Assembly (NCBI GenBank): GCA_013335405.1
Contig: JAAXVR010000026.1
Coordinates: 1-38,888 of the forward strand
Length of the DNA stretch: 38,888 bases
Reading direction: 5' to 3'
Source of the DNA: Chlorobiaceae bacterium
GTDB taxonomy: Bacteria > Bacteroidota > Chlorobiia > Chlorobiales > Chlorobiaceae
Positions 10,507 to 30,925 of the stretch are shown here, piece after piece. Made by a program: the position numbers and the translations under genes. Each line of letters begins with the position of its first letter. Position 1 is the stretch's first letter. The notes beneath the pieces are model-generated. The model was not told the origin of the DNA. It saw nothing but the letters and a program-made list of their open reading frames with translations, and did not search any database.

Positions 10507-10686
10507 ATGGAAGCAAAAGACAAAGTACTGGAGGTTCTCAACAATTCAGATCAGCCGCTCAGTGCAGGTCAGATAACGGAAATCAGCGGATTGGACAGGA
10601 AAGAGGTTGACAAGGCGATGAAAACACTCAAGGATGAAGAGCGTATCGTATCGCCGAAACGTTGTTACTGGCAACCAAAGAAATAG
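10507..10686 (+). CDS. small winged-helix-like protein (59 residues)
   Basis: The short frame encodes a 59-residue basic protein, [20 protein letters not shown] onwards. It has the pattern of a minimal winged-helix domain: helix 1 ([10 protein letters not shown]), helix 2 after PLSAGQI, recognition helix ([15 protein letters not shown]) and a beta wing ending RCYWQPKK. It could bind DNA as a stand-alone regulator. There is no strong Shine-Dalgarno site. The gene is followed about 50 bp later by the terminator of the convergent sigma-54 activator. The fold assignment is by pattern only. Confidence 0.72.
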
Positions 10687-10728
10687 TTCCGCCGGCGGAT
10701 ACGAGTAACAGAACCGGCAGAGCCGGAC

Positions 10729-10765
10729 ACAAAAGAAACATCCCCTCTGAAATCAGACGGGGATG
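10729..10765 (-). terminator. rho-independent terminator of the sigma-54 activator gene
   Basis: CATCCCC-TCTGA (10739-10750) pairs with TCAGA-C-GGGGATG (10753-10765), a 12-bp stem with one bulged C. On the minus strand it is followed by a T-rich run (TTTCTTTT). It lies 40 bp beyond the stop codon of the minus-strand activator gene and also separates it from the plus-strand winged-helix gene. Confidence 0.8.
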
Positions 10766-10804
10766 CACGATAATCCTGACCGACGATCCTTTGAAGGCAA
10801 ACGG

Positions 10805-12250
10805 TTACGGATTGATGGTTATGGTTTTCGTCAGATCGAAACGCTTCATTTTCCTGATCAGTGTCGAACGGCTGATACCGAGAAGTTCCGCTGTTTTCGT
10901 CTGGTTGCCGCCGCACTGCTTGTAAGCCTTGAGGATTGCCTGCAGTTCCATGTCCTTGAGTATCGGATGCCCCTGCACATCACCATCCGGAAGAAGTTTT
11001 CCGGCGTTTCCCGCAGCATCGTCGGCAAACCCTTCCTTTTCCGCTGCCGCCTCATGTTCCGGCGCCGCATGGGAAGCCGACGGCAGGTTGAAGGTGTCGA
11101 TCGTATTGCCCTTGCGGTTGATGACGGCCCGACGGATCACATTCTGGAGCTCACGGATGTTTCCCGGCCAGCGATAAGCCTTCAGGGAATTCAATGCTTT
11201 CGTCGAAATATCCGGCGGTTCGATATTGTTCGCCTTGCAGAATTCATTGAGAAAATGTCTGGCCAGCAGGACAATATCATCATCCCTTTCCCTCAATGGA
11301 GGTATATAAAGCGGATACTCTTCAAGACGATAATAAAGATCGGCCCTGAACGAGTTTGTCGCGATTGCCTCGGTGAAATCCCTGTGGGTGGCTGAAATGA
11401 GCCTGAAATCGACAGGTCGCTCCCTCTTCTCGCCAATCCTCCTGATCTTCTTTTCCTGCAGCACACGCAGAACCTTTGCCTGTATATCGATATTCATATC
11501 GCCGATTTCATCCAGAAAAATCGTACCATGGTCCGCCTGTTCGAAAAACCCTGTATGGTCACTGTTGGCACCGGTAAAGGAACCTTTCAGATGTCCGAAA
11601 AGAAGGCTGTCTGCAAGATCGTTGGATATGGCGGCACAATTGATGGTAACAAACGGCCCCTGCTTCCGCTTGCTTCCGTTATGGATAGCCTGGGCAAAAA
11701 GCTCTTTGCCGGTGCCGCTTTCCCCGTTGATCAGGACATTCATATCGGTTTCCATGACCTGCATGGCCTGTTCGACACATTGCTTGATGGCAGAGCTGGC
11801 TCCGACAATAAAATTGAAAATGTCCTTCTGTTTCAGTTCCTTTTTCAGCTCATTGATTTTCTGTTTCAGGCCGGATTCTGCCAGGGCGTTTCTGAGAAGG
11901 ATTTCAAGGCGTTGCTTGTCTACAGGCTTGGTGAGGTACTCGTAAGCCCCGAGCTTGATACATTTGACCGCCTGGCTGATGTCTTCCATCGCTGTGATGA
12001 TGATGACCGGAAACAGATAAGACTGATCCTGCAGGTAGGAAAGAACTTCCATACCGCTTTTCAGCGGCATGTTGAGATCGAGCAGAAGAACGTCGATCTG
12101 GTTCTTTTCGATCGTTTCAATGCACTGCTCGCCATTTTCCGCAGTCAGCACGTCGTAACCGAGCCTTTTGAGCAGATGGCTTATAAGGGTACGGATTACC
12201 GAACTGTCGTCGGCAACGAGTACCATTTGTTTTGAAACGTTCTGTACCAT
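10805..12250 (-). CDS. sigma-54-dependent response regulator (NtrC/LuxO type)
   Basis: Two-component transcription activator for RNA polymerase with sigma-54. Of 481 residues, about 8-122 form a receiver with phospho-acceptor Asp58 (LLLDLNMP), acidic pair near 14-15 and Lys108. The AAA+ domain (about 146-375) has Walker A GESGTGKE at 176-183, the sigma-54 contact loop as GSFTGA at 223-228 instead of GAFTGA, and Walker B TIFLDEIG at 243-250. A Fis-type helix-turn-helix is at about 436-472 (GGNQTKTAELLGISRSTLIR). The ATG has AGAGGGG upstream. With a CqsS-like kinase and CqsA-like synthase in the same cluster, this is the obvious candidate for the LuxO role. NtrC, ZraR and LuxO cannot be separated on domain content alone. 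Confidence 0.9.
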   Translation of the reverse strand: MVQNVSKQMVLVADDSSVIRTLISHLLKRLGYDVLTAENGEQCIETIEKNQIDVLLLDLNMPLKSGMEVLSYLQDQSYLFPVIIITAMEDISQAVKCIKLGAYEYLTKPVDKQRLEILLRNALAESGLKQKINELKKELKQKDIFNFIVGASSAIKQCVEQAMQVMETDMNVLINGESGTGKELFAQAIHNGSKRKQGPFVTINCAAISNDLADSLLFGHLKGSFTGANSDHTGFFEQADHGTIFLDEIGDMNIDIQAKVLRVLQEKKIRRIGEKRERPVDFRLISATHRDFTEAIATNSFRADLYYRLEEYPLYIPPLRERDDDIVLLARHFLNEFCKANNIEPPDISTKALNSLKAYRWPGNIRELQNVIRRAVINRKGNTIDTFNLPSASHAAPEHEAAAEKEGFADDAAGNAGKLLPDGDVQGHPILKDMELQAILKAYKQCGGNQTKTAELLGISRSTLIRKMKRFDLTKTITINP

Positions 12251-12436
12251 ATTGATACCCCTCTGTGATTATCCGGTAATATACTCGCAAAAAAATAAAC
12301 TAACACAATGGAACAGATAAAAATTGAAATCATCATGCTGACCGATTGCGCCCGATTATTTCATGATTTATCCGGAAAACAGACCGGCCTGGAGTAATTG
12401 CAGGCAAGCGCCGAAAAAAAGTGCCCTGCCGATATT

Positions 12437-12454
12437 TTGATACAACTGTATCAA
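12437..12454. promoter_or_regulatory. 18-bp palindrome, candidate activator (enhancer) site
   Basis: TTGATACAACTGTATCAA is an 8-bp perfect inverted repeat with a 2-bp centre, in the gap between the activator gene and the small gene at 12662. It lies 158-175 bp upstream of the start predicted for the sigma-54 promoter at 12586-12601, a usual distance for NtrC-family enhancer sites. A lone TTGATAC half-site occurs again in the activator's own leader at about 12252-12258. Binding is inferred, not shown. Confidence 0.5.
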
Positions 12455-12585
12455 TGTTTTTCTCAAATCCTCAGCCATGATTTGATCGGGAAAAAGGGCA
12501 ACAAACCGTTAATCGCTTTTATTAAATTACTTTACGTCGAAATCACCAGCAATCGAACCCCGCATCCTGATTCGCATACAACATC

Positions 12586-12601
12586 CGGCATGATTTTTGC
12601 A
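12586..12601 (+). promoter_or_regulatory. predicted sigma-54 (-24/-12) promoter
   Basis: CGGCATGATTTTTGCA fits the sigma-54 consensus TGGCACG-N4-TTGCA at all but the first and sixth bases. GG (12587-12588) and GC (12599-12600) have the obligatory 10-bp spacing. Transcription would begin near 12612, about 50 nt before the ATG of the 67-codon gene at 12662, which has AAGG at normal spacing. The closest encoded sigma-54 activator is the adjacent gene. Confidence 0.62.
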
Positions 12602-12661
12602 ATCATATCAGAAGATTTAAAAAAAACACAGCAATTCAGGACATGTTACATAAGGCCCGGT

Positions 12662-12865
12662 ATGACAAATGAACTATTCAACAGACTTGCATTCGCTGTT
12701 TCTGATATTGATTTCTCTGTCATTCAACTGAAACGCATTTACGAAGGCAATGCAACTCCGGGAAAAGACCGAAGCACAGAAACAAGGGAACTGCTCCAGG
12801 CGCTTGTAACCGACATAAAAACCATTGAAGCGAACCTGAATGACATTTTATCGAAATTATCCTGA
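12662..12865 (+). CDS. small uncharacterised protein (67 residues), putative sigma-54-driven
   Basis: I recognise no family. The 67-residue product starts MTNELFNRLAFAVSDIDFSV and ends with a long amphipathic, heptad-like helix (about residues 40-66, RELLQALVTDIKTIEANL within it). This suggests a coiled-coil or small adaptor protein in the cytoplasm, with no cysteines and no membrane segment. I prefer this start over the longer open frame from 12398. The ATG is preceded by ATAAGG, and the upstream part of the frame is not protein-like and contains a sigma-54 promoter and a palindrome. Its place between activator and sensor kinase makes it a candidate output or feedback component of the quorum-sensing module. 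Confidence 0.6.
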   Translation: MTNELFNRLAFAVSDIDFSVIQLKRIYEGNATPGKDRSTETRELLQALVTDIKTIEANLNDILSKLS

Positions 12866-13316
12866 CACAACAGTGTACGTTCTGTTCCTCTTGCCGTGAA
12901 AAGTCAGGGTCAAGCTCCGTAATGGCGCGCGATTGCACTTGCATGACCTGAGAGTCCCGACAAGTTCAGAATGAGGAATTCGATCCCTGCCCGTCGGGGC
13001 CAAACCGAGTCATGAAGGCTCAGAGACGATATCAACCAGAGGTCTCCGACAGCAGAGATCACACCAGGTCCGTTATCTCATCGGAAAAACAGCAGTTTCC
13101 CTTCTGACAGCAGGAACTCGCCGGAATCACGTTCCATAAAAGATCCGTACTGTTTGCTGTTGGAAGTTCTGCTTGCGGGTTAATGACGCCATTTCGAAGG
13201 AACAAATGAAATGCGGATCATTACCGGTGCGCATTCTTTCACTGTTCAATGGCATAGAGCAAGCTCGCAACCGTTTTCAGAAAACTGCTGATGCCGGAGC
13301 GGCAAAAAAGCGGGCA
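12866..13316. other. 451-bp region without a recognisable gene
   Basis: This stretch separates the 67-codon gene from the 3' end of the sensor kinase. No frame looks like protein, and the reading frame that enters it from 13173 is a shadow of the kinase. A short inverted repeat (AACAG/CTGTT) lies at about 12868-12886 without a T tract. Since LuxO-type systems act through small RNAs, a small RNA here is conceivable, but I see no convincing promoter and terminator. Confidence 0.4.
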
Positions 13317-15857
13317 TTATGTCTTTTCAAGACGGATATAGCGCTGCAGATCCTGAACAGTATCCGCATAGACTTTTTTCAGGATATCGAGCCATCCCGC
13401 CTTTTCAGGCCACTCCCCTCTCCGCGCCAGTTCGTTGAGATATTTGCAGAGAACATGCATTTTATTGGCCCCGACACTTCCGGACGACCCTTTCAGGGTG
13501 TGGGTCAGGTAGTCCACCTGTTCAATATCACGTTTTTCGCAGGCATCGTTCAGTTCCCCTGTCAGTTTGTCCGTATCGAGAATATACGTTTCAAACAGGC
13601 TTCCCAAGAGCTCATCACCGCCAATTTCCCTTAGTCCGTTGATGGTCGAAGGATCAAGCACTTTTTCAATTTCGAGTTTGCTCCAGAAATCCGGTCCCTC
13701 ATGGCCGGATTCCGTCATTTTTGTTTTGTTCATTGGTTTTTCCTCGGTCGTGTCATGTTTTAGCATTACTGCAATAGCGGAAAGAAGCTCATCTTTGAAG
13801 ACTGGCTTGCCAAGCATGTAATTCATTCCGGCGTTCCTGATATCCTGCACGCTCTTTTCATCTGTATTCCCGGTCAGCGCAATGATCGGAATCCGGCTGA
13901 ACGAGGTGAAACGCACGAAATTCTTCCCGCCCCTGATGGCCTTTGCCGCCTCGATTCCATCCATTACAGGCATCTGGATATCCATGAGCACCAGATCGAA
14001 ACTTTCCTTTTCGAGCATTTCGATGGCATCACGTCCGTTCAGGGCGTGTTCGGTAATACAGCCGTACTGGTTGAGCACCATGCTCATGAATTTTCTGCTG
14101 GTTTTGTTGTCGTCGACCAGCAGGATGCGTTTTCCGGAGATAACCTCCTCCTGCGTGTTCCTGATGGAAGAGATTTCGGAGAAGAAATACTTTTCAACGA
14201 TTCTTTTAATGTCGGAACGCTTGACCGGTTTTGACAGCACCTCGTTCATTCCGCTCTTTTTTCCTCTTTTGCCCGCTTCCTGTTCAGGCAGTGCCGTAAC
14301 TCCGACGACCGGAGCCTGCAGATAATGCAGTGCAAGGGCGGGATCGATATCCTGTGCGGAACGGATCATCTTGACGACACTGTCCCCGTTGAGGAACGGC
14401 ATCTCGAAATCCATGAAAATCAGATCGTAACGGTTCTCGGAGATAAGGGCGAGCGCCTGGTTTCCGTTTTCCGCCTGATCGAACTGGCAATTCATTTCGG
14501 AAAGAAATTTCGCAATGATGAGCCGGTTTCCAAGCTGATCGTCGACGATCAGGACTCTTTTTTTCCGGAGAATTCTGTTTTTAATTTCTGTAACAATCTT
14601 CGAATCATACTTTGGAAGCGTAATGGTAAATTCAGTCCATTCCCCTTCTCTTGAATCGCAGGATATCGTTCCTCCGAAAGACTCGACTACCCTTCTGCAG
14701 AAAGAGAGCCCAAGGCCGAATCCGCCTTTCTTGTTGGTATAAAAACTTTCGAAAATTTTCTCTTTTCGACCCGCAGGGATTCCGGGACCGGTATCCCTGA
14801 CCCTTATCCAATTTTCGGAATCGGTCCCGTCAGTCGTAATTTCTATGGAGAACCCGTGTTTATCCTTGTAATACAGGGCATTCTTCATCAGGTTGAACAA
14901 GACATAGAAAAACAGGTCCCGGTCACCAAGAAAATCAAAATCCCTTTTTTTCGTTACCGTAACCAGCGTTCTTTCTGCAGTGTCACTGTACGGATAACTC
15001 TTGACCACGGTATCCATCAGCAATGAGGAAGAGTTGCGAATAAAACCCGCTGTCGCCACCTCTCCCCCCTGCATGCTGGTCAGAATCGAGTCGATGATCT
15101 TGTTCGCCCTGTTCAGGGTGAAGGAACTTTCCTCGATGACATGATGAATGCTCGTAAGGCTTGTATGGCTTATATCATATCGTTCTTGTTCTTCTTCCCC
15201 GTCCGGTTTCCGCGGAAGACTTGCCTGCACCGTGGCTATCGCATTGGTGATGGAACTGAGCGGATTGCGCATTTCATGCGCGATACTGCCGCTCAGGCTT
15301 CTGAGCAGCGAGATTTTCGATTTATGTGCTGCCTGTTTTCTGTGGTTGATGATCAATCCGCCGAAAAGTGCGAAAAAGAAGGTGGGAATATATTCCGCCC
15401 TGAAATAGGTGAACCGGACCTCCCCTTCCAGAGCCCACACCGCGCCGTAAGCGGCAAAAAAGCTGAAAACCAGCATAACGCAGATGATCCGCCAGTCGTA
15501 GACGAGTATGATAAGAAGCACCAGACCGCCGATGGTCGACAATGCCCAGGTTAAAGACCAGGCGTTCTCGAACGTCATGAAAAAGAAAAAGAACGGCAGA
15601 AGCAGGGGGACCGAAAAAAGAAAATAGAGCGGGAAATAATCCTTGACCTTTTTCGGAAGGAATCGGTAAAAAAGCCAGGGAAGGCTTATAACAGCTTCGA
15701 GAAGACGAAATTCGAGGCTTTCGTAAGGTTGGGGCAGAATATCTTTCCAGACCACGTAGAAGAGCGGGTAACCAATAGTGGCAAACATCCCGATAACCGG
15801 GATATTGGGTTCAGCCTGCTCTATTAATTCTATAGCTTTTTGTTTAAGCTTCTGCAT
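13317..15857 (-). CDS. cqsS: CqsS-like hybrid sensor histidine kinase with two receivers and Hpt
   Basis: Probable receptor kinase for an alpha-hydroxyketone (CAI-1-type) autoinducer in the inner membrane. The N-terminus (AEPNIPVIG...GYPLFYVVW, PQPYESLEFR) and six hydrophobic segments at about 20-37, 52-66, 74-94, 104-120, 122-141 and 156-171 match the CqsS sensor. The kinase part has H box SIAHEMRNPLS with His194, N box around Asn322-Asn326 and G boxes DTGPGIP (355-361) and GFGLGL (379-384). Two receivers follow, with Asp483 (FMDFEMP) and Asp626 (LMDIQMP), then an Hpt domain with His786 (THTLKGSSGS). The 846 residues exceed the ~690 of Vibrio CqsS, which has no Hpt and a degenerate first receiver, as I recall. 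It is divergent from the CqsA-like synthase gene. Confidence 0.9.
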   Translation of the reverse strand: MQKLKQKAIELIEQAEPNIPVIGMFATIGYPLFYVVWKDILPQPYESLEFRLLEAVISLPWLFYRFLPKKVKDYFPLYFLFSVPLLLPFFFFFMTFENAWSLTWALSTIGGLVLLIILVYDWRIICVMLVFSFFAAYGAVWALEGEVRFTYFRAEYIPTFFFALFGGLIINHRKQAAHKSKISLLRSLSGSIAHEMRNPLSSITNAIATVQASLPRKPDGEEEQERYDISHTSLTSIHHVIEESSFTLNRANKIIDSILTSMQGGEVATAGFIRNSSSLLMDTVVKSYPYSDTAERTLVTVTKKRDFDFLGDRDLFFYVLFNLMKNALYYKDKHGFSIEITTDGTDSENWIRVRDTGPGIPAGRKEKIFESFYTNKKGGFGLGLSFCRRVVESFGGTISCDSREGEWTEFTITLPKYDSKIVTEIKNRILRKKRVLIVDDQLGNRLIIAKFLSEMNCQFDQAENGNQALALISENRYDLIFMDFEMPFLNGDSVVKMIRSAQDIDPALALHYLQAPVVGVTALPEQEAGKRGKKSGMNEVLSKPVKRSDIKRIVEKYFFSEISSIRNTQEEVISGKRILLVDDNKTSRKFMSMVLNQYGCITEHALNGRDAIEMLEKESFDLVLMDIQMPVMDGIEAAKAIRGGKNFVRFTSFSRIPIIALTGNTDEKSVQDIRNAGMNYMLGKPVFKDELLSAIAVMLKHDTTEEKPMNKTKMTESGHEGPDFWSKLEIEKVLDPSTINGLREIGGDELLGSLFETYILDTDKLTGELNDACEKRDIEQVDYLTHTLKGSSGSVGANKMHVLCKYLNELARRGEWPEKAGWLDILKKVYADTVQDLQRYIRLEKT

Positions 15858-16247
15858 CGTTGAATCGGTGATTCAGCCTCCCTCTGCCCTGGAACATGAT
15901 AAACGTCAACGAACTAAAAATATTTCAGCGGTTCAGCAAAAGCCTGCGGCCTTGAATAGAATGCCCGACGATGAAAGAATGAACAGGAAATCCGCTAAAA
16001 CACAAAAGTCACCCTCCATATCAAGAGGGCTGCATACGTAATGAGGATAGTGAAAGAATATATTTTGGGAGTAAGAAACTTTTCCGGTCATTCGTTATAT
16101 TACTCTAAGTATAATAAAAATCAAAACATTGGTGGTGTAGTTTTTTCATGTTCCGGTTGAAAGTCGTTTTCATTTTTACCTCTAAACAGTCATTACCCCG
16201 AAAATAAACGTATCGAAGAAACATCTGCACTCTGGTCTGATAAACTT
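15858..16247. other. 390-bp divergent regulatory region between kinase and synthase genes
   Basis: No gene is visible here. A perfect 6-bp inverted repeat with 3-bp centre, TGAATCGGTGATTCA (15861-15875), lies only 3 bp before the kinase start codon. On the plus strand a TATAAT hexamer stands in the A+T-rich stretch near 16110, with only a weak -35 match, and could serve the synthase gene about 135 bp downstream. No sigma-54 promoter with correct spacing was found for either gene. Confidence 0.5.
15861..15875. promoter_or_regulatory. 15-bp palindrome at the kinase start codon
   Basis: TGAATCGGTGATTCA is a perfect inverted repeat (TGAATC/GATTCA, 3-bp centre) placed 4-18 bp upstream of the kinase ATG. 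It could be an operator or an RNA hairpin covering the ribosome-binding region. It shares only TTGA...TCA ends with the palindrome at 12437-12454, so a common binding protein is speculative. Confidence 0.35.
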
Positions 16248-17498
16248 ATGGATAACAATCAGTTAAACATTCACGACAACCAAAGACCACCCTGCGGAGG
16301 AAAACTGGATTTTCCCGAGTTTCTGGAAAAAAAGCTTATTGAATGCGACAAGGAAATATTTCAGCCTCGAAAAAACGGCAAACCCCTTGTTGTTGGTGAC
16401 AGGAGCCCTGGTCCCGAAGCTATCGTTCTGCAAAGTAACGATTATCTGAACATTTCGAGCCATCCGGACATCCGGAAAGCCCAGCTCGATATTCTCCAGA
16501 ACAAACAGAGTGAGCCGGTCATGTCGGCGGTGTTCTTCCACGAAGACAGTCCGAACCACCTCTTCGAACAGGAAATGGCTCAATTCGCCGGTTTTGAAAA
16601 TTCGATCGTCTGTCAGTCGGGCTGGGCGGCAAATGTCGGTCTGATGCAGGTAATCGCTGACAGGACCACCCCTGTTTACATTGACTTTTTTACCCACATG
16701 TCTCTGTGGGAAGGGATCAAGGTATCGGGGGCAACACCGCATTCCTTCAGGCACAACGACCCGGAACACCTCGAACGGCTGATTCGGGAACACGGCCAGG
16801 GCATTATCCTGATCGATTCCCTTTACAGCACCATCGGAGACATCGCCCCGCTTGTCGACATCATTGAAATCGCCAACCGATACGAATGCATTTCCATTGT
16901 CGATGAATCCCATTCACTCGGGACACATGGCCCTCATGGTTCCGGCCTGGTTGCGGAATCTGGACTGACCGACAAGGTGCATTTCATAACGGGAAGTCTT
17001 GCAAAGGCTTTTGCCGGACGTGCAGGTATCATCATCTGCTCGAACCGGTTCGCGAAATATTACCCCTACATGGCCTTCCCTGCAATTTTCAGTTCCGCGC
17101 TTCTTCCGCATGAAATTGCGGGGCTGAGGGCAACGATCAAGGTCATCACGGAAGGGGACCAACGCAGGGAAAAACTTCGTGAAAACGCAAAATTCCTCCG
17201 TGACGGGCTCGACGGCCTTGGCTACAATATTGCAAGCCAGTCACAGATCATCGCCATAGAAGGCGGACTGGAGTCGGACACCGAACTCCTTCGTGATGCA
17301 CTGGAAACAAGAAATGTTTTCGGATCGGTTTTCATGACCCCTGCAACGCCGAAAACCAGGTCTCTCATGCGCTTTTCCCTGCACAGCGGCCTTGAAAAGG
17401 AAGCGTTGCAATACGTACTCGAAGTCTGCGAAGAAATCAGGGACGAAGTCGGCATGTGGAACTGGAAATCGACAAAGAGGAAATCTCCCCGTTCGTGA
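16248..17498 (+). CDS. cqsA: CqsA-like alpha-hydroxyketone (CAI-1-type) autoinducer synthase
   Basis: PLP-dependent alpha-oxoamine synthase-fold enzyme expected to condense a fatty acyl-CoA with an amino-acid-derived substrate to make a long-chain (amino/hydroxy)ketone signal. Diagnostic CqsA blocks are LQSNDYL (61-67), [11 protein letters not shown] (122-132), [14 protein letters not shown] (143-156), IDSLYSTIG (189-197), [11 protein letters not shown] (218-228), the PLP lysine Lys253 in [33 protein letters not shown] and [13 protein letters not shown] and BioF paralogues lack the YIDFF-HMSLWEG block. The 416 residues compare with ~390 in Vibrio. The N-terminal 20 residues are extra, and no clear Shine-Dalgarno precedes this ATG. 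The divergent neighbour is the cognate-type sensor. Acyl chain length and substrate choice are unknown. Confidence 0.92.
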
Positions 17499-17890
17499 GC
17501 CGTGCGACGGCAATCCGGATAATCAGATACCGCACTTCTCCTGCCCTGCCCCGCAATCGTCCCGTATACAGCATTTCCCCGCCAAAGCGGTACCCGTTTA
17601 TGACGCCTCACGCATCTTAACCGACCCGTTCCCTTTTTCTTCTGCAACTGATAAAAAAGCTGCTGAGAAATCACCCTGCTGTTTCCGACAATTTTTCACA
17701 CAGGAAAATCTTATTTGGTTCCCGCATTGAGAGCGAAACAGCTCGCCTTCCGGTTTTCCTCTCTTTTTTCGGAATAAGCCAACGCGCAACAAAGCAATAT
17801 TTTTCTGCCATATCAGACTTATTCATATTTTTTTACGGGAAACAACTATATTTAGCTTAATTATTAAAATAACCGAATTATTTGAACCCC
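17499..17890. other. non-coding stretch downstream of the synthase gene
   Basis: About 390 bp with no plausible gene on either strand. The distal part (from about 17790) is very A+T-rich and probably contains the promoter of the P-II/amtB genes, but no hexamer pair stands out. No rho-independent terminator for the synthase gene was recognised. Confidence 0.4.
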
Positions 17891-29188: not shown

Positions 29189-30925
29189 TCATCTTCTGCG
29201 CTTCTTTTTCTTTGCCGGGGATTTAACCGCAACTTTCCCTTTCTTGCCTTTCCGGACAATCTTGTGTTTTGCCTCATTGCGGGCGTTCCGGGCATGTTTG
29301 AGGGAGCGACTGTGCCGTCCTTTCGCGACAACGGCGTGGCGGGATGAAGAACGGGATGACTTGCGAACAACGACTTCCGTTTCAACTTTGAGTCGTTTCC
29401 CGGCAGCTATCGATCTTGAGCTTCTCAGACCGTTGAGCGCCATGATTCTCTGGACAGTCGTATGGTATTTCCGTGCAATCAGGGCAAGCGTTTCACGCCT
29501 GCCAACTTTATGCATGACGATTTTCTTCTTGACGGAAGAGGTAACCTCGTCATCGCCGGCATCCTTATTCCGAGCACCGCGAGAACTGAAAGAGACGGTA
29601 TTGTCGGAACCGCCGAAAACGATGAGTTTCTGTCCGGGAGTAACATCCGCGTCTTTCAGATTGTTCCATACAATCAACTGGCTGACATAGGTACGAAACA
29701 TACGCGCAATGGATCCGAGGGTTTCTCCTTCCTGGACGATATGAACCTTTTCTATTTTTTCTCCTGACGATTCAACCCCTCCTCCCCTGCTGTTGCTTTC
29801 AACCCTTGCAAGCAGCATCTCCTGCTCGAGGGTTCTCGGTGATTTGTACGCGTAAATTTCCTGTTCCCGGTTCTGGAACTGGGATACATATTTTCTGGGA
29901 AGCCTGAGAACACTCGGCGTTATGCCTGTCGAAGCCGGAATGATACCGAGCTTGTACTGGGGATTGAGAAACTTGAGGTCCTGGAGGGGTATGCCGAGCG
30001 TTCCGTTGATCTGCTCGAAAGAAAGGAAATGAGATGTCCTGAGGGTATCGACATCCTGATAGAGATATCCCGGTTCCACGGGACGAATATTGTGTTCCTT
30101 GTAATAGTTCATGAGGTAGTTCACGGCAATGAACGCCGGTACATAACCCCTTGTCTCCGCCGGAAGGTAATCGTAGATAGCCCAGTAATCCTTGACACCG
30201 CCCGCCCTTCTGATAGCCTTGTTGACATTTCCCGGTCCGGCATTATAGGCGGCAAGTACAAGGAACCAGTCTCCGTAGATATTGTAGAGGTCACGAAGAT
30301 GCCTGGCCGCCGCAACGGTCGCCTTGTAAGGATCATATCGATCCTCGATGAATGATGAAGACTGGAGCCCGTACATTTTTCCGGTTCCGTACATGAACTG
30401 CCACAATCCTTTCGCCCCGGCAGGTGAAACGGCTGCAGGGTTCAGGGCGGACTCGACGATGGCGAGGTACTTCATCTCAAGCGGTACATTGTACTTGTCG
30501 AGCTTTTCCTCGAACAGGGGGAAATAGATCCTGGACAACCCGATGATTTTGGACATCGAATTCCGCTTGTCAACCGCATATACTTTTATGAACCCTTTGA
30601 CAGGATCGTTGTAGACAAGGTTGAACGGCGTTTTCCTGCGCAATGCCCCTATTCTGGAAGCATAGACCGAGTCACTGTACTGGGGAACGAAATTTGAAGG
30701 AAAACCGTATTTGTCAGCCTCTCTGGAAGCCGAAGAAAAATGCTCGTCCCTGAAATAGGTGACATTGACGAGACTGTCGAGAATATCCGAAACTGATGAC
30801 CTGCCTGCTCCTCTTTCGTCAGCAATGGCGTTACCGGAAGTTACCGGTTGCACAAGCAACGCGCATGCCAGCAGCAGAAAAACCTTTAAACCCTTATAAT
30901 AAAACCTGATGTTCACAAGCGGCAT
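29189..30925 (-). CDS. membrane-anchored lytic transglycosylase with LysM repeats (MltD-like)
   Basis: Cleaves peptidoglycan glycan strands in the periplasm. From ATG 30925 the 578-residue protein has a signal/anchor helix at about 14-30. An SLT (family 1) catalytic domain spans about 140-265, with Glu158 in [20 protein letters not shown] and [13 protein letters not shown]. Two LysM peptidoglycan-binding modules lie at about 394-437 and 470-514. The C-terminal ~60 residues are extremely Lys/Arg/Ser/His-rich and end KKKKRRR, which is not part of MltD. An in-frame codon at 30991 would add 22 residues before the signal sequence and is less likely. The gene lies 127 bp downstream of truA. Confidence 0.92.

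Follow-up and report, generated by a model that had tools for sequence, protein, structure and literature searches.

A CqsS-type receptor kinase with a fused Hpt domain and a nearby sigma-54 activator in a green sulfur bacterium

The closest described counterpart of the circuit treated here is the CAI-1 system of Vibrio cholerae, in which phosphate passes along the relay CqsS His194 – Asp618 – LuxU His58 – LuxO Asp47 (PMC3310172) and in which residues W104, S107 and F162 of CqsS set recognition of the CAI-1 head group (PMC3376566). Papers are cited by accession number, each for selected passages of its text. CqsA/CqsS genes have already been reported from green sulfur bacteria (PMC5289986), and an adjacent pair from coral-associated Prosthecochloris (PMC10158934). 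Here we describe a receptor kinase encoded at 13317..15857 on the minus strand of a 38,888-nucleotide stretch of Chlorobiaceae DNA (JAAXVR010000026.1; hereafter the window), together with the adjacent cqsA gene, a nearby sigma-54 activator and a small gene of 67 codons. The window is contig C49 of a 2.47-Mb genome that comprises 62 contigs and is estimated to be 99.99% complete. We put at about two in three the probability that these genes form an alpha-hydroxyketone quorum circuit whose CqsS-type receptor has a histidine phosphotransfer (Hpt) domain of its own and relays to the sigma-54 activator. The green sulfur cqsA/cqsS accounts make no mention of a fused Hpt: none of LuxU, LuxO or Hpt appears in the main text of PMC10158934, nor Hpt in that of PMC5289986. 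In the literature searched (titles, abstract openings and passages, with few subscription journals), we found no description of a fused Hpt in CqsS, of the small gene, or of the wiring downstream of cqsA/cqsS in green sulfur bacteria.

A CqsS-type receptor beside cqsA

The receptor is a hybrid kinase of 846 amino acids (aa) in which a six-helix sensor is followed by a histidine kinase core (HK), two receivers (REC1 and REC2) and an Hpt domain, all on the minus strand. The membrane sensor (residues 1–175; 15333..15857) carries W104, S107, F160 and F162, with Ile at residue 170. The kinase core (residues 181–419; 14601..15317) holds phospho-His194 in an AHEMRNP motif that is invariant among 30 aligned receptors. 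The first receiver (residues 433–556; 14190..14561) has D439, D483, T521 and K543, and the second (residues 576–700; 13758..14132) has D582, D626, T662 and K684, so that both keep the acidic residue, Asp, Thr and Lys expected in a live receiver. The chain closes with the Hpt domain (residues 746–840; 13338..13622) and its His786. Pfam recognises two Response_reg stretches (157.2 bits for the protein, cut-off 30.2), HATPase_c (89.1 bits) and Hpt (37.8 bits, cut-off 24.6), while the HisKA score of 26.1 lies slightly below its cut-off of 26.9. Structure models of the receptor and of the 67-aa protein were used for secondary structure only; that of the receptor (mean pLDDT 79.4, pTM 0.48) predicts six N-terminal helices suited to crossing the membrane six times; both receivers are modelled as five-strand folds, and H786 falls within helix 778–795 of a C-terminal helix bundle. 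With phospho-His, receivers and Hpt, each with its active residues, in a single chain, the receptor is an unorthodox hybrid kinase (HK-REC-Hpt). A preliminary description of this DNA had placed His194, Asp483, Asp626 and His786 in one protein and Asp58 in the activator. Every one of these residues is found exactly there, Pfam confirms the Hpt, and the structure prediction that the description had proposed for the two receivers bears it out.

The receptor gene is divergent from a plus-strand gene (16248..17498) across an intergenic region of 390 bp (15858..16247). The product of that gene reaches 616.4 bits with model NF005526 (curated cut-off 428) and so belongs to the CqsA family of alpha-hydroxyketone autoinducer synthases. 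Its best solved-structure match is the V. cholerae CAI-1 synthase 3hqt, and the lysine of the SLAK motif is conserved in all three sequences aligned; judged by family membership, this CqsA probably makes the signal. We compared the locus with 80 CqsA loci, the best 80 of 216 relatives in a scan of named genomes, of which 29 come from 26 green sulfur genomes and 51 from others. A CqsS-like sensor frame was found at 24 of the 29 green sulfur loci and 42 of the 51 others, although two of the latter receptors (L097 and L121) have no kinase core by our own profiles. In a midpoint-rooted tree of 66 sensor-kinase parts, from which L052, L067, L097 and L121 were left out, the green sulfur Hpt-type receptors are the nearest group to 24 Vibrionaceae CqsS (support 99/98). 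W104, S107 and F162 are present in 52 of 52 receptors longer than 640 aa beside cqsA, namely 20 green sulfur receptors of Hpt type, three green sulfur receptors without Hpt, 24 from Vibrionaceae and five from Rickettsiales-type metagenome-assembled genomes (MAGs); 11 kinase-only receptors stand outside this alignment. A paralog from the window's genome, K9, which lies on contig C9 beside a different enzyme and not beside cqsA, has C107 and L162.

By its divergent CqsA, its position in the tree and its CAI-1 head-group residues, the receptor is, as far as sequence can tell, a relative of CqsS. It has the adjacent synthase, the head-group residues within a predicted six-span sensor and the grouping with Vibrio; whereas CqsS of Vibrio ends in a receiver and signals through a separate Hpt protein, this chain closes with a C-terminal Hpt. 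NCBIfam was tried as a further test of CqsS identity and set aside, since no CqsS model is among the 25 best listed of 154 matches; a LuxN model leads those listed, at 242.8 bits with a cut-off of 1550.

Distribution of the fused Hpt and of the activator

Among the green sulfur receptors beside cqsA, 19 of 24 carry the fused Hpt (in L052 the gene is frame-split), three are without it, and two, L053 and L067, are truncated close to the end of a contig. The part missing from L053 is matched by a receptor end (L179) that lies elsewhere in its genome, on a different contig. Outside the green sulfur bacteria, none of the 42 receptors beside cqsA has a fused Hpt. At the three Hpt-less green sulfur loci (L063, L066 and L072, of Chlorobaculum type) CqsA is combined with a CqsS-like receptor that has a degenerate first receiver. 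Their genomes yielded no Hpt domain and no activator ortholog, so the output path there must differ. The Hpt profile behind these counts was seeded from Hpt domains of the window's own genome; it still detects a distant Paraburkholderia Hpt at 29 bits, and Pfam agrees with it in the five receptors checked (L063, L066, L072 and L112 without Hpt, L054 with). On a plasmid of Paraburkholderia caribensis (NZ_CP013105.1, L273:5864-9505) a gene with KAS III-type domains is followed immediately by one for an 858-aa CqsS-like HK-REC-REC-Hpt protein; the first of the two may encode a signal synthase of a third type that serves these sensors. The fused design is thus not confined to green sulfur bacteria.

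The activator gene (10805..12250, minus strand) encodes an NtrC-family protein with D58 in its receiver, a GSFTGA motif and a Fis-type helix-turn-helix (HTH), and is the probable end point of the relay. Its Pfam architecture of receiver, AAA+ and Fis-type HTH is that of LuxO. With the NCBI LuxO equivalog model it scores 361.2 bits, short of the cut-off of 800, and it scores higher with the AtoC (419.3) and NtrC (405.7) models, each time below the model's own cut-off; LuxO is its third-ranked solved-structure relative. RpoN is encoded in the same genome. The activator had been called the receptor's neighbour; 1,066 bp and an oppositely oriented small gene separate them.

A second sample consisted of 37 genomes of the same genus, 12 with CqsA and 25 without, ten of which are, by shared coordinates, also in the 26-genome green sulfur set. 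Activator orthologs (at least 56% identity, one partial) occur in 17 of the 37, comprising 12/12 genomes with CqsA and 5/25 without. Hpt and activator are both present in these 17 genomes and both absent from the remaining 20, and the five genomes that have an Hpt without CqsA all have the activator. On a tree of two marker proteins from the 37 genomes, Hpt and activator each change three times, together each time, while CqsA changes five times. The 26-genome set divides into 21 genomes with Hpt and activator, three (Chlorobaculum type) with neither, one with Hpt only and one with activator only.

The proposed path of the phosphate and its alternatives

In the reading that we prefer, CqsA would make the signal, and at low signal the receptor would autophosphorylate at His194. 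The phosphate would then move to Asp626 of the second receiver, to His786 of the fused Hpt and on to Asp58 of the activator, while Asp483 of the first receiver would act as a live accessory receiver that tunes or drains the relay. Phosphorylated activator and RpoN would turn on sigma-54 promoters, the nearest probably being that of the divergent 67-aa gene. By analogy with Vibrio, binding of the signal would shut the kinase and reverse the phosphate flow. The other Hpt-bearing CqsS-like receptors of the genome may converge on the same activator.

Several comparisons bear on which receiver feeds the Hpt. Every receptor row that retains the Hpt region has H786 (19/19). The complete set of four first-receiver residues is found in 19 of the 20 green sulfur Hpt-type rows (D439 20/20, D483 19/20, T521 20/20, K543 20/20), and in 0/24 Vibrionaceae, 0/3 Hpt-less green sulfur and 0/5 Rickettsiales-type rows. 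In Vibrionaceae the acidic residue is lost in 24/24, and the first segment matches receiver profiles at 84% probability (0.3% for an Hpt control), which marks it as a receiver remnant; the Rickettsiales-type first receivers are intermediate, with Asp in 4/5, Lys in 4/5 and Asn in place of Thr in 5/5. What the preliminary description had stated of Vibrio CqsS, namely His194 and a separate LuxU (PMC3310172) and a degenerate first receiver (24/24 aligned), is borne out. The intactness of the first receiver just where an Hpt is fused could mean that Asp483, and not Asp626, feeds the Hpt, or that both do so in turn. We regard this as decidedly improbable, for Asp626 aligns with Asp618 of V. cholerae CqsS, the biochemically proven relay residue, so that Asp626 is likely the donor to H786 and Asp483 the extra one. 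Two receptors also speak against it: the paralog K23 of the same genome, which has an intact Hpt and a damaged first receiver (T to K, K to R) and so agrees with Asp626 as donor, and L065, which has a fused Hpt and D483E. The relay aspartate is therefore more probably D626 than D483 by alignment, and the earlier suggestion that the additional receiver is a branch point or sink is compatible with these findings.

The preliminary description had further held that the fused Hpt makes a LuxU-type protein unnecessary. For relatives this is well supported by comparison of genomes, because in six of them (G064, G067, G070, G080, G084 and G086) the sole Hpt found (PF01627) lies in a frame of 775–899 aa that is a CqsS-type receptor. 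All six carry an activator ortholog; the best case is G070 (by its coordinates the same assembly as G005, estimated 99% complete), and G084, which matches G033, is estimated 80% complete. An Hpt is present in 22 of the 26 green sulfur CqsA genomes; Hpt frames shorter than 200 aa occur in nine of the 22 (counting the L179 piece in one and a 70-aa fragment in another) and in none of the other 13. For the window's own genome the claim holds less well. The search for a separate luxU returned five PF01627 Hpts, four in CqsS-like receptors (on C9, C23, C49 and C57) and one in a free protein of 116 aa on C14 (Pfam Hpt 41.3 bits), a stand-alone Hpt of LuxU type that goes partly against what had been claimed.

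This free Hpt is the first of several observations that weigh against the reading we prefer. Its best solved-structure match is LuxU (E 1.5e-4, versus E 0.47 for the fused Hpt with the LuxU structure), so it is a possible LuxU. An ortholog is encoded in all but one of the five other genomes whose activators come nearest to the window's (79–90% identity), namely in G008/G061 and G030/G063 (51–52% identity), G062 (68%) and G085 (66%). The free protein could on this account do the work of LuxU, leaving the fused Hpt as a side branch or phosphatase partner. We think this unlikely. The free Hpt lies among genes read as cydDC and cbb3-oxidase genes, and it has no match above 50% identity in 9 of the 12 CqsA-bearing genomes of the genus; in the fifth close-activator genome (G009/G075) receptor, activator (79%) and small gene occur together and no Hpt frame is shorter than 200 aa, and H786 is retained by every receptor that keeps its region. 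It is also rather improbable that the receptor passes its phosphate to some other regulator and that the nearby activator serves another kinase or acts independently. Activator and receptor are seen together at just 6 of 25 loci (the window's and 5 of 24 others with a receptor), and elsewhere the activator lies at another place, a few loci being too short to judge. In G076, a genome with receptor and Hpt, we could find no activator ortholog, and Glu replaces D483 of the receptor; in G078 the activator occurs without an Hpt, and a contig end truncates the receptor. Four of the five CqsA-less genomes with activator orthologs (G011, G017, G022 and G025) have another type of Hpt kinase, a hybrid with one receiver and an Hpt and without a CqsS-like sensor (three with a PAS_4 match), which may be the activator's real partner there. 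Other regulators of the window's genome are possible relay targets too, although the next-best activator (C37, 40% identical) has its own adjacent kinase. In favour of the nearby activator, it tracks the Hpt in 37/37 genomes, but with few independent changes: there are three, and they share one direction (sign test p 0.25). The outcome foretold for the last 14 genomes was no blind test, another Hpt query having already matched 4/5 of the positives and 0/9 of the negatives. With only three joint changes the match counts as agreement and not as proof, and as a statistical proof it was set aside as weak after tree correction. The earlier proposal of direct transfer from the fused Hpt to the activator thus keeps its comparative support, with that limit.

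One genome, G016, has an Hpt and no synthase or full receptor that could be found. Its sole Hpt is a free open reading frame (ORF) of 146 aa with intact His (L185:6954-7394), at the syntenic position of the receptor of its relatives, and the activator is also kept. Since G016 stands beside G005 and G033 in the tree, synthase and receptor were probably lost. The free Hpt has dN/dS of about 0.24–0.29 with the nearest receptors, a value that pools its own branch with theirs and leaves room for relaxed selection.

The window's genome encodes four Hpt-bearing CqsS-like receptors, not one. On C57 (L040:6484-10866) there is a second divergent CqsA/CqsS-Hpt pair, whose CqsA is 66% identical to the window's and whose receptor has Ala at residue 170 in place of Ile. 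As this position sets signal tail length in Vibrio CqsS (PMC3285556), the difference suggests, by analogy, that the two pairs use signals of different tail length, and two private channels feeding one activator are possible. An orphan CqsS-Hpt receptor on C23 (L041:3581-6169), damaged in its first receiver and with no cqsA in the stretch read, stands upstream of apparent RND efflux genes. On C9 (L042:7140-11037) just 7 bp separate the gene for a CqsS-like HK-REC-REC-Hpt receptor from the gene upstream of it, whose 464-aa product contains an LCM-type methyltransferase domain (PF04072, 95.1 bits) and matches a thioesterase family below threshold (YiiD_C, 19 of 27 bits); by analogy with Ralstonia PhcB/PhcS these two may be a receptor-synthase pair for another signal. 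Further afield, MAGs labelled Rickettsiales, Rickettsia, Alphaproteobacteria and Proteobacteria (L078, L079, L081, L082 and L083) carry CqsA directly followed by a CqsS-like receptor of 696–699 aa with the CAI-1 head-group residues. A single 1003-aa frame from a MAG labelled Cellvibrionaceae (L077:2295-5306) joins a CqsA-like domain, which shares 62% identity with the window's, to an NB-ARC and TPR repeat region, possibly through an assembly error.

The small divergent gene and comparison with known systems

Divergent from the activator gene lies a conserved ORF of 67 codons (12662..12865, plus strand) whose product is a predicted helical hairpin with no Pfam match above cut-off. The ORF is present at the six loci where the activator stands beside the receptor (the window's, L048, L049, L050, L051 and L064), and weak relatives (about 25–33% identity) divergently adjoin the activator in the CqsA-minus genomes G011 and G022; beside the more distant activator type it was not found in the loci searched. 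In 15 pairwise comparisons pN/pS is 0.29–0.53 in 13, 0.63 in one close pair and 0.07 in one, some of the pairwise dS values being saturated. A longer plus-strand frame of 155 aa (12398-12865) was rejected as a gene, as its first part overlaps the two sites described next and its conserved part is the last 67 codons.

A sigma-54 -24/-12-like site, CGGCATGATTTTTGCA (12586..12601, plus strand), lies 60 bp before the small ORF. Such a site precedes the ORF start by 39–60 bp at all six loci and scores 11 or 12 of 12 positions, scores that 0 to 0.5% of 2000 base shuffles reach in each case; the six loci are related and not independent. Similar sites precede the small ORF in G011 and G022, one of them with the GC lost. 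The only other match in the window (30855-30870) lies within a coding frame, about one being expected by chance, and at up to one mismatch there is none at the cqsA or receptor promoter. Upstream of the site is a perfect dyad, TTGATACA-AC-TGTATCAA (12437..12454), a candidate activator-binding site that is recognisable at five of the six loci (not L051) and only at four mismatches in G011 and G022. By sequence alone the dyad was rejected as evidence: 1.85 dyads per window are expected by chance at up to three mismatches, so that its weight rests on position and conservation. A Qrr-like small RNA (sRNA) beside the activator was likewise considered and rejected, as Rfam returns no match of any family up to E 5 within 10600-17600. 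Because the sigma-54-like site and the dyad are conserved, we infer that the activator probably drives the 67-aa gene.

Taken together, these findings could be read as follows: Chlorobium-type Cqs circuits use interchangeable Hpts, several receptors with a built-in LuxU converge on one sigma-54 activator, and the nearest output, at the place of qrr1, is a small helical protein; after loss of synthase and kinase the Hpt persists as a free LuxU-type protein, so that fused and separate designs interconvert. We offer this wider synthesis tentatively and doubt that it holds as a whole. The system provides a natural contrast for a question of design, namely why Vibrio pools several receptors via one free LuxU. 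Receptors with and without Hpt occur within one bacterial group, where the activator follows the Hpt rather than the signal synthase; a qrr1-like output locus appears to make a small protein; and in the lineage of G016 the Hpt has apparently been released from its receptor.

Compared with the CqsA/CqsS-LuxU-LuxO system of Vibrio, the window has the same CqsA-family enzyme, the six-helix sensor with W104, S107 and F162, His194, a receiver aligned at Asp618 and a sigma-54 activator as probable end point, and its receptor type is the nearest group in the receptor tree. It differs in that the Hpt is fused and not a separate LuxU, the first receiver is intact and not degenerate, the activator is not a LuxO equivalog, and no Qrr was found by Rfam in the interval searched. 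With Legionella LqsS/LqsR and Burkholderiales relatives it shares an alpha-hydroxyketone synthase beside a six-helix sensor kinase; unlike the window's receptor, Lqs-type kinases have no domain beyond the kinase core and require a separate regulator. Our loci include 11 such kinase-only receptors from Pseudomonadota, of 425–490 aa, Legionella itself not being among them. As in the unorthodox kinases ArcB, BarA, EvgS and TorS, an internal His-Asp-His relay would end in a C-terminal Hpt, but here with another sensor, two receivers and, as probable ligand, an autoinducer of the cell's own making. Chains of HK-RR-Hpt type (RR, response regulator) are a common class that has been surveyed (PMC4558063). 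The qrr1 gene of V. harveyi is divergent from luxO and starts 151 bp upstream of it, and the DNA between the two contains LuxO and sigma-54 sites (PMC8043402). The window resembles this luxO-qrr1 arrangement of Vibrionaceae, as described there: a putative output gene adjoins the activator gene on its upstream side and points away from it, and a sigma-54-like site and a candidate activator site lie in the gap. It differs in that the gene at this place is a conserved 67-aa ORF and not an Rfam-recognised sRNA.

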